A program made the position numbers and the translations under genes. DNA of 64,000 nt from Nothopassalora personata (taxonomy: Eukaryota; Ascomycota; Dothideomycetes; Mycosphaerellales; Mycosphaerellaceae): positions 3,348,001 through 3,412,000 of the forward strand of contig CM066292.1 of assembly GCA_033816765.1 (NCBI GenBank), read 5' to 3'. The notes beneath the pieces were generated by a model. It did no database searches. It had not been told where the DNA came from and saw only the letters and a program-made list of their open reading frames with translations. Shown one piece after another: positions 23,138 through 26,092 of the stretch (its first letter is position 1; every line of letters starts with the position of its first letter).

Positions 23138-25064
23138 GTTGATGTCGTCGGGGGTGATAGGTTATGACGTCCTGTGGTTATTTGTGTGGATCCTGATCAA
23201 TTGGCCACGTGCTGACGTGAATGCCATGAGGGTCATACCCATCAAGGTGCTCTCCATACTTATGTATGTGATCGACCGACTCCAGGTGTCTCGGCTTCGA
23301 AACCCTACAATCTGCTCGGCGACTCATGCCTTGGCTACAGGCTCGAAACACGCAGAGATCCTCACACGGCTTCGTGTTCCCCATATAGAAGGCCAAGTTA
23401 CACGGTGCGTTCCATCTGTCCAACAATGAAATTGCAGCCTACATCCTCGTTACTTTGAGCCTATTCGAGGTACAGTTTTCCTTACCCTGCTTCTCCGCCG
23501 TAAGACAGAATGTATCGCGACAAGATAGCTACCGACTGCCATCAAACGGCCGTTGCGACTACCGTAAGACGAACGTATTACAACACCTCTAGTTACCGAG
23601 TAGCTAGCAGCGGGAAAAACACCTTCGCGGCTGTGTAATAGAGGCCCTGCTTAGTCGAACGAGGACATGCTATATTGCAGAGCTAGCATAGCGTAACATA
23701 CCTTGCATCATCATCTGAGTGTCGTGTAGATGGAAGACACTCTACTGTCGGGTAGGCTTACTTGGTCCTAGAGATGCCCGTTGGTGGCAGCCACTCACCC
23801 ACACGACAGTGGCCACATTGTGAACATAGGGGTTATAATCGAGAGTTGCTGCCTAGATGTCTGACAACGACCTCAAACCAGGCAGATACTGCCATAGCTG
23901 GCTACACCGTGGCCATGGAGGCTGTAAGAAATCCACATGTGGCCAGGCATCTCTAGATGGTCCTTCGCGACAGCTTGGCAAGACCTCATTCCACCAACAG
24001 CCGTCCAGTCGTGAGGACGGTGGTGCCATGCGTGAGTTGCCGAAGTTTCTTCGAATTGTGTTCGAAGGATGCCAAGCGCAGAGCCTCTCAGATACAGCGT
24101 CTGTCAGCGTCCGAAGGTTACTCTGTTAGTGGCCGCGCCAGATTCTCTTTCGTCTAATCTAAATAACTTTCGGACGCTGACAGACGCTGTATTGCTAGGG
24201 GTGCCATGTCTGAAGAATATTTCACAGAGATGATCCTAGTCTGCGAAGATTAAAGCCGAAGACCAGAGCACAGTGACAGGGCTCCATTGCCTCAAGCAAG
24301 TATAGAGCGACCTGGGTGCTGGCATGTTGTTCGCATGTCGCAGCTCGACACGTGCGAGAAGCGCTGAGATTGCAGCCTTCGCACCACGCCAGCGCCGGAG
24401 CTCATGAAAGAGCCAAATCCAGTATGTGTCGACACAGGATGGGACCGACCTGCGCGAGAACTCACCAGCGTCAATATCTGAGCAACGAATTGGTCAGTAT
24501 CGCGCTACACTAGACGGCGGCGAGAAGATACAAGAAAACCCCTTTGACCACTAGGTATGAGTGTGATCTGCACAAGAAAAGAACGTGCAACACCTTCCGC
24601 TTTGCGAACTCTGAAGCATCTTGATCTCTCCTCTAGCCTTTGACTTTATCTTGTCCGCCAGCTACTCCGATGTACATGATCATGCCAACCAGCCCGAGAA
24701 CCAGCTCATCCCACAGGAACACTCCTTGGATTGTCGTGTACCAGACATCGGAGGGGGCATCAGGGCAGGCATCGGCAGAATTGTGCTCTTGATTGGGAAA
24801 GTGCAAATGCTATGCCGAAACGAACATTTAAGATCGACCGTGATTTCCGAGCTGTGATTCCTCCCGAACTCGTTTCAAAAGAGATCCCGATCCGCTCGAC
24901 CAGGAAACCATCGAGAGCCTTGCTGTCATGTTTCTGTCATTTCCATCGTTGTTGCGATAGCTCATCGCTATATCCCGCTAATGCTTCGCAGTCATGATAG
25001 CCCCCATACGCCTCAATCATTCAATCCATCCATTCCACAATCCGTTCGAAGTTGTCCTGTTCAA
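23138..25064. other. gene-poor stretch with TE crumb and hairpin repeat
   Basis: No gene is supported. About 23470-23760 is another TpA-rich, RIP-like fragment. A strong inverted repeat lies at 24092-24192 (listed separately). The remaining short frames lack domains. Confidence 0.4.
24092..24192. repeat. 29-bp near-perfect inverted repeat (hairpin or MITE-like)
   Basis: The arms 24092-24120 and 24164-24192 are reverse complements with one mismatch in 29 bases, separated by a 43-base loop. The outer ends begin ATACAGCG and end CGCTGTAT. I see no obvious target-site duplication. A transcript would fold into a long stem; as DNA it could be a tiny MITE or the remains of one. Confidence 0.8.
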
Positions 25065-25628
25065 TCACAGTCCCAAGCTCCGCCTAACGTCTGCCTTGAC
25101 TCTTGCCTCGTATTCCTTTCTCCGCTCCCGCCACTGCCGTGCAGCATCCACATTCGCCGGGCTTTCATCGTTCGGCTCAGCGATCATGCTCATGACACTG
25201 ATCAAGATCTTCTCCACGCTTTGGATCGGACTCCATCGCTCGCTGGCCTGTTCGTAGTGGTTGGGGTCATCACCGGGTGGATGCAGGATGGATATGCACA
25301 CTGTGCCATTCGGATAGACTGTACAGACCAATTATCAGTACACCTCACTTACCGTTTTCTGGCCGGGATCGTGCAGTGCCCTACCGTTTGGGTGCCAGAT
25401 GTCGCATGTGAACTTCATAACAGGTGGCATGAGAGGGTAGTCACGTGGAAACTTGAGCTCTGCTGGGAATATGCCGCCCTCGAATGGTGTGCCTTCTGGG
25501 CCCTGTATAAGAGCTTCCCACACGAAGAGATCATCTTCGTTGACTGGTCCGGCTGTGATGCCTTCTGGTGGGTCGGTGCTGAGTGACTTGTACTCTGAGA
25601 AGAGGCGTTTTGCCGCGACGGAATTCAT
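25065..25628 (-). CDS. UBC7: ubiquitin-conjugating enzyme E2 (UBC7/UBE2G class), two exons
   Basis: Exon 1 is 25385-25628 and exon 2 is 25065-25318, with a 66-bp intron (GTAGGG...TACAG). The joined protein is 165 residues, the same length as yeast Ubc7. The catalytic cysteine is C89 in [12 protein letters not shown], and the HPN motif lies just before the splice junction (DIWHPN-V). The UBC7-class acidic insertion after the active site is present ([20 protein letters not shown]), followed by [20 protein letters not shown] and the C-terminal helices ending [10 protein letters not shown]. Ubc7-class enzymes work in ER-associated degradation with membrane-anchored E3 ligases, building K48 chains. 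The start [13 protein letters not shown] aligns with known family starts, so no upstream exon is needed. Confidence 0.95.
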
Positions 25629-25878
25629 AGCGATTTGTTGTTTTGCACGGAGTGACTGACGGAAGAAAGCGTTAAACGTCTAGAAGTAACGTACGTCTGG
25701 TGAGGCAACATTGAACATGACATTGTTCAGTGACGAGTGATTGGCAGGTCCGGCTTCGGCTTGCGATTCACTCCGGGCCAGCGTCGGCACAAGCGAAAGT
25801 CGCACCTCACACTTCACTCCAAAATTTTATAAGCTACATATACATCTTTTTGAAGGCGGGTTCATCGGTCACCTGATC

Positions 25879-26084
25879 GGCTCAGTGGTTAGTATCACTT
25901 GGTGTCGAAGACATCTGTTCAGCCGTCTTACACTCTCATAGGTCTAGGGGTATGATGTGAGTAACAACAGCTGCCGATGTCTACCAACGCAGCTTCCGCT
26001 AATGACCGGTCAGTCTTGCTTTGGGTACGTTATTCAGTTTACCTTATCTGCAAGAGGTCTCGCGTTCGAATCGCGGCTGAGCCC
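25879..26084 (+). tRNA. tRNA-Pro (anticodon TGG) interrupted by three introns
   Basis: The exonic pieces are 25879-25887 (GGCTCAGTG), 25942-25956 (GTCTAGGGGTATGAT), 26014-26025 (TCTTGCTTTGGG) and 26049-26084. Together they make exactly 72 nt, the size of fungal tRNA-Pro. The acceptor stem GGCTCAG/CTGAGCC pairs 7 of 7, the anticodon stem CTTGC/GCAAG 5 of 5, and the T arm TCGCG-TTCGAAT-CGCGG fully (one G-U). The anticodon loop is TTTGGGT. The intron at 26026-26048 (23 nt, after position 37) is the normal tRNA type. The other two, 25888-25941 (54 nt) and 25957-26013 (57 nt), are bounded by GTTAGT...TAG and GTGAGT...CAG. Both have branch-like CTTAC or CTAAT 11 nt before the end. A B box is present (GTTCGAATC), and a TTTT terminator follows. 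Without the two GT-AG removals there is no acceptor or D arm. Confidence 0.8.
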
Positions 26085-26088
26085 TCTC

Positions 26089-26092
26089 TTTT
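26089..26092 (+). terminator. RNA polymerase III terminator (TTTT)
   Basis: A four-T run starting five bases after the discriminator base of the tRNA-Pro gene, in the position expected for Pol III termination. Confidence 0.6.

Follow-up and report, generated by a model that had tools for sequence, protein, structure and literature searches.

The window analysed here, a 64,000-nucleotide (nt) stretch of contig CM066292.1 of the fungus Nothopassalora personata (assembly of 54.5 Mb in 40 contigs), carries on its plus strand a gene for a proline transfer RNA with the anticodon UGG, tRNA-Pro(UGG), that occupies positions 25879-26084 and is broken into four exon blocks. The blocks lie at 25879-25887, 25942-25956, 26014-26025 and 26049-26084 and are separated by gaps of 54, 57 and 23 nt. 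Joined, they form a 72-nt tRNA with an acceptor stem paired at 7/7 positions, an anticodon stem at 5/5, a T stem at 5/5 (one G-U pair) and the anticodon TGG. Exon 1 supplies nt 1-9, that is the 5' strand of the acceptor stem, which pairs 7/7 with 26077-26083, and positions 8-9. Exon 2 supplies nt 10-24, with the D arm, and exon 3 nt 25-36, with the 5' strand of the anticodon stem and the anticodon. Exon 4 holds the 3' strand of the anticodon stem, the variable loop, the T arm with the B box, the 3' strand of the acceptor stem and the discriminator. The 23-nt gap (26026-26048) is an ordinary tRNA intron at position 37/38 and is not of the GT-AG type. The two other inserts, after nt 9 (25888-25941, 54 nt) and after nt 24 (25957-26013, 57 nt), begin GTTAGT and GTGAGT and end TAG and CAG. 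Each carries a branch-like motif that starts 15 nt before its end, CTTAC at 25927-25931 and CTAAT at 25999-26003, so placed on the plus strand like all the features above. A sequence-only reading of the window had described this four-block gene, with its two GT-AG gaps and its 37/38 intron, and every statement it made about the sequence held. We consider it very likely that the two extra inserts are, as predicted, spliceosomal introns, which the spliceosome would remove from an RNA polymerase III (Pol III) transcript before the tRNA endonuclease acts.

A segmentation program limited to GT-AG inserts, in which a 37/38 intron is cheap and D-stem pairing counts, returned exactly the boundaries of the sequence-only reading, with a score of 38.4 against 24.2 when no extra inserts were allowed; a cruder version that charged all introns alike misplaced the window inserts. 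Once the two inserts are removed, ARAGORN reports tRNA-Pro(tgg) with a 23-nt intron in the anticodon loop, and it makes no call on the unspliced sequence. Neither ARAGORN in bacterial mode nor Rfam at gathering cut-offs gave a match in the window. When the upstream part was swapped for other sequence from the window, none of 800 constructs that kept the last exon alone reached 38.4, and one of 800 did so when the 5' anticodon exon and the 37/38 intron were kept as well. The chance of finding the 5' part of the gene, taken alone, is therefore about 1 in 800.

A paralogue settles the four-block structure. When up to 3 mismatches were allowed, a genome search for the T-arm stretch gave four matches. 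Two are exact, the window gene and the locus L009, and the other two, with 3 mismatches, do not carry it. The exons of L009 comprise the same 71 nt as those of the window gene, and L009 reads GGCTCAGTGGTCTAGGGGTATGAT unbroken, which is exons 1 and 2 of the window gene joined; exon 2 has identical letters, and the insert after nt 9 is absent. Like the window gene, L009 is interrupted after nt 24, in its case by a GT-AG insert of 56 nt, and it has an 18-nt intron at 37/38. Its T arm carries a further GT-AG insert of 52 nt that is absent from the window gene. The sequence-only reading had also raised the case of an uninterrupted tRNA-Pro(TGG) gene supplying the cell; a genome search that covered nt 17-37 and tolerated up to 3 mismatches found no such gene, its single match being the Pro(AGG) gene L096.

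While the sequence-only reading saw one gene, the extra inserts are a genome-wide condition. We collected loci by T-loop patterns, mostly with a following run of T, and examined 74 T-loop anchors (54 and 20); pattern matches resembling repeats or noise were set aside, and for one pattern the first 100 of 143 matches were considered. The anchors resolved into 34 nuclear tRNA genes, nine members of a family of tRNA-like genes about 130 nt long (L058-L065), and 31 loci that either could not be assigned or were not tRNA. Outside position 37/38 we count 30 extra inserts in 19 of the 34 genes: two each for Pro(TGG), Ile(AAT), Asp(GTC), Arg(ACG) and Asn(GTT), three each for Phe(GAA) and Glu(CTC), and one each for Val(CAC), Lys(CTT) and Thr(TGT). 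They follow nt 9, 10, 15, 16, 20, 24-28, 30, 45, 51, 52, 61, 62 or 64. The remaining 15 genes have only a 37/38 intron (13) or no intron (2), and represent Gly(GCC) (4), Ala(AGC) and Pro(AGG) (2 each), and Arg(TCT), Gln(CTG), Ala(CGC), Tyr, Thr(CGT), Val(AAC) and Ser(AGA). Many isotypes (e.g. Leu, Met, Trp, Cys and His) were not recovered by the T-loop patterns, and 19/34 is the share in this sample. Introns at 37/38, of 7-58 nt, are present in 32 of the 34 genes, a share that seems high.

The extra inserts bear marks of introns of messenger RNA (mRNA) in their ends and their internal motif. All 30 can be placed as GT...AG, in keeping with the GT...AG ends and GTRNGT-like donor of U2-type spliceosomal introns, and they measure 49-74 nt (median 54); none of the 32 ordinary 37/38 introns reads GT...AG. 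With a mean of about 2.5 equivalent placements per insert, the chance of obtaining GT-AG is about 1% each. We also let all 256 classes of end dinucleotides compete in 33 of the 34 genes (Ser was omitted, and T-arm inserts had been removed beforehand in nine). Fourteen genes gained from an extra insert and 19 gained from no class; GT-AG was best or joint best in all 14 that gained, and sole best in six. Its summed gain was 179.4, against 91.2 for the next class and a class mean of 38.6 (standard deviation 13.4). Where T-arm deletions were looked for irrespective of their end letters, GT-AG was among the top placements at 7/7 loci. The branch motif, which played no part in placing boundaries, agrees: in 29 of the 30 inserts a YTNAY has its start 15 or 16 nt from the 3' end (CTRAY in 24), compared with a background rate of 0.6% within the inserts and with 0/26 among 37/38 introns of at least 16 nt.

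ARAGORN, with introns allowed, recovered the expected anticodon from all 34 spliced sequences, although the choice of exons was partly guided by tRNA structure. With the extra inserts alone removed, it gave the expected amino acid in 17 of the 19 interrupted genes (the exceptions being L037 and L075), and on the same genes unspliced it made a call in five and none in 14. Since tRNA finders miss such genes, related genomes may have been credited with wrong numbers of tRNAs. Within the window, candidate introns that join open reading frames (ORFs) numbered 32 when overlaps were allowed, against 10, 11 and 7 in three shuffles, and 22 without overlap, a noisy set. The best of them are 46-56 nt long (one of 70 and one of 88), and several have CTRAY 14-16 nt before the end. 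The likeness of the extra inserts to these candidate mRNA introns is agreement, not proof. The inserts do not appear to be copies of an introner: an all-against-all BLAST of the 30 gave one 12-nt match, and against the window they matched only themselves.

Paralogues within the genome differ in their inserts much more than in their exons. Exon identity within paralogue groups is 92-100%, whereas the extra inserts are 53-73% identical (49-60% when shuffled). With near-identical exons around diverged inserts, it is the product of splicing that selection preserves, and the inserts drift. Three Phe genes with identical exons carry inserts after nt 10 and 30 (L053), after 30 only (L087), and after 10 and 25 (L088). 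Three Glu genes, again with identical exons, carry them after nt 16 and 51 (L092, L093) or after 51 only (L094). The T-arm inserts of the Asn pair follow nt 64 and 62, and the inserts of the Asp pair follow nt 28 and 27. These differences indicate that inserts come, go or slide; and because several are private to a single paralogue, they were probably gained one at a time. Reverse splicing is the route of gain that the sequence-only reading had suggested as a possibility. The end dinucleotides, the branch motif at a fixed distance, and presence or absence between paralogues thus all agree with the earlier proposal of spliceosomal introns inside a tRNA gene, which the 30 inserts in 19 genes now back.

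All three Phe genes found in this genome are interrupted, and no uninterrupted one was found. A direct search for one gave 35 loose matches (44 in a reversed control), the best at 2 mismatches; none of the ten that were scanned with ARAGORN was a tRNA, in a search that could miss genes with several changes. Phe has a single known anticodon in nuclear genomes, so that if no intact Phe gene exists, the interrupted ones must be spliced.

How such genes might be transcribed is suggested by their flanks. At the window gene, TATA-like elements lie 34-51 nt upstream of nt 1 (25828-25845), and a TTTT that is likely a Pol III terminator lies at 26089-26092, all on the plus strand. TATA-like motifs occur at -80 to -30 in 22 of the 34 genes, against 10% of random window positions, and a run of four or more T occurs within 45 nt of the gene end in 33, many of which were picked by their T run. 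Transcription by Pol III would probably proceed from the upstream TATA-like element together with the B box; the upstream element would serve as a TFIIIB site and need not rely on an intact A box. It is also possible that TFIIIC binding is kept, as an A-box-like stretch survives 3' of inserts at 9/10 or 10/11 because the insert's own AG adjoins the rest of the A box. In the five inserts after nt 9 or 10, the final AG occupies the R9-G10 site of the A box (8-9 in the window gene). Nucleotide 10 and the T loop are 52-198 bp apart in the 19 interrupted genes and 43-100 bp apart in the other 15. Splicing would take place in the nucleus. The acceptor, anticodon and T stems are read by end processing and by the tRNA endonuclease; because the inserts break these stems, the spliceosome would act first, followed by end processing and then by the endonuclease on the 37/38 intron and ligase.

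Interruption extends to a further small RNA gene. In the U6 gene L091 (1457-1725; G000:C6, about 4370284), the core is canonical and is accompanied by three GT-AG introns, which measure 51, 53 and 54 nt.

Several observations weigh against spliceosomal introns in the tRNA genes, or limit how far the counts carry. The sample is incomplete, since loci entered it through a T loop that could be read and, in most cases, a T run. Where boundaries had equivalent placements, GT-AG was chosen, and those in the Asn T arm, the Lys variable loop and the Phe anticodon stem were placed by eye. For the Phe gene L087, the program favoured a reading without the extra insert, with a long 37/38 intron and a non-Phe loop. 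The second of two U6 matches, L090, is uncut and differs in the conserved core. The 5S genes gave at least 18 matches, 17 of them over the cut-off, and all 17 are uncut (47 of 2839 candidates were scored). Lastly, a relaxed test for bulge-helix-bulge structure was passed by 10 of the 30 inserts against 19.8% expected (P about 0.06). This last result lends something to the idea that the extra inserts are tRNA-endonuclease introns at unusual sites, recognised by a bulge-helix-bulge, as in Cyanidioschyzon merolae, nucleomorphs and archaea; multiple introns outside 37/38 are indeed described for the red alga and archaea in portions of PMC4090602. Under strict pairing only 1 of the 30 qualified (6.6% expected). 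None of the 30 lies at position 37/38, where the window's 23-nt intron does lie, and GT-AG ends, a narrow length range and a branch motif fall outside what that model predicts and are missing from the 37/38 introns of the same genes. We therefore hold an endonuclease origin to be very unlikely.

Alternatively, the interrupted genes may be dead, intron-ridden relics, with intact genes elsewhere supplying the cell. That 15 of the 34 genes lack extra inserts, having no intron or one at 37/38, would fit, as would the acceptor mismatch found once in both Asp copies. Against it, the spliced product is conserved, since the exons of paralogues differ little or not at all and their inserts and flanks have diverged, and no intact Pro(UGG) or Phe gene was found, with 10 of the 35 loose Phe matches scanned; we judge this explanation highly improbable. 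A further rival takes the 5' blocks for chance matches and supposes the real gene to be a different one; it draws on the one random upstream stretch in 800 that scores as well as the window gene considered alone. It is refuted by the paralogues, since L009 has the 5' blocks joined and the same is true of L094 against L092/L093 for Glu and of L087 against L053/L088 for Phe, leaving it a negligible probability.

The spliceosomal reading would have consequences beyond one locus. It is likely, judging from the genome sequence, that this fungus needs the spliceosome in addition to the tRNA-cutting enzyme to make its tRNAs. We think it probable, with somewhat less assurance than for the window gene itself, that tRNAs for several amino acids are made only with the spliceosome, that all tRNA-Phe genes need two splicing systems in turn, and that protein synthesis thereby depends on mRNA-type splicing; that introns are still being gained in tRNA genes; and that these add a third class to the self-splicing and endonuclease kinds of tRNA intron. 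Should the inserts be spliced out, the supply of tRNA would depend on the spliceosome, a single transcript would pass through two splicing systems in order, and the spliceosome would be able to handle exons of 9-15 nt in a Pol III transcript that has no cap. The genes would also document, in nature, how introns are gained by genes that are very short and under strict constraint, with presence and absence readable between paralogues of one genome.

Our searches also touched a number of other loci. A UBC7-like gene, read by eye, adjoins the window tRNA gene on the opposite (minus) strand at 25000-25640. Downstream of the tRNA gene lies a gene for a RIT1-like protein, which is most similar to one from Fulvia fulva, a member of the Mycosphaerellaceae (82% over 99% of 280 amino acids). 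The tRNA-like family L058-L065 (nine anchors, about 130 nt) has tRNA acceptor, D and T arms, and a 57-67-nt insert replaces the anticodon loop. Tens of dispersed tRNA-derived repeats, resembling short interspersed nuclear elements and with the loop CTA or TTA, include L004-L008 and most Rfam tRNA matches, and a separate repeat family carries AGGTTGTAGGTTCGAGTC. Among the 31 anchors outside the resolved set, L055, L070-L072, L081 and L084 are tRNA-like; L055 has a GT-AG insert with CTAAC before the insert end and no matching acceptor stem. The 5S loci (L123-L130 among them) are scattered over many contigs and are uncut, unlike the tRNA and U6 genes. A genome search with the Rfam tRNA model, in which 63 of 2063 candidates were scored, gave mitochondrial genes and the tRNA-derived repeat; as it missed ordinary nuclear genes such as L017, no absence is inferred from it. 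A composite tRNA query against the genome gave 7 matches only, and two tRNA patterns run against viral contigs in search of relatives gave none each.

In the textbook view, it takes a protein endonuclease and a ligase to remove the introns of nuclear tRNAs. They are treated likewise, as substrates of endonuclease and ligase, in sections of PMC4090602, and no report of spliceosomal introns in tRNA genes was found in searches of open-access literature. GT-AG introns in small structured RNAs are already known; the tRNA host and the number of inserts are new as far as that literature shows. The ectopic tRNA introns of the red alga and archaea are endonuclease substrates, and the text of PMC4090602 contains no word that begins with 'spliceosom'; noncanonical tRNA introns are treated as archaeal in parts of PMC8450103. 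The genes described here resemble those of Cyanidioschyzon merolae, nucleomorphs and archaea in having two or three introns, also outside 37/38, as set out in the same sections of PMC4090602. They differ in that those introns are cut by the tRNA splicing endonuclease at a bulge-helix-bulge, whereas the inserts here have GT-AG ends and a branch motif and only one of the 30 pairs strictly.

Other parallels to the predicted introns come from within the fungi. Spliceosomal introns in ribosomal RNA (rRNA) genes include lichen cases, and nuclear rRNA genes of some fungi are so interrupted according to excerpts of PMC11782384. They share with the tRNA genes the presence of GT-AG introns in a non-coding RNA gene that is not made by Pol II, and differ in that Pol I makes the rRNA, a much longer molecule. 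Recent gain of spliceosomal introns in the same fungal group is shown by the introner-like elements of Fulvia fulva, Dothistroma and other Dothideomycetes, described in extracts of PMC4457414, a paper that has no 'tRNA'; the 30 inserts here, unlike introner-like elements, share no sequence beyond the one 12-nt match. A further precedent lies in fungal U6 small nuclear RNA and U3 small nucleolar RNA. According to the pertinent passages of PMC5832005, no small structured RNAs other than these two were known in 2017 to be interrupted often. Their introns, in the same passages, are GT-AG with RCTRAY-type branch motifs, variable positions, sliding, and copies with and without. The inserts described here are similar as GT-AG introns with a branch motif inside small structured RNAs, and L091 shows the same in the present genome. 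They are distinct in their hosts, which here would be many tRNA genes, each with up to two such introns besides the tRNA-endonuclease intron.
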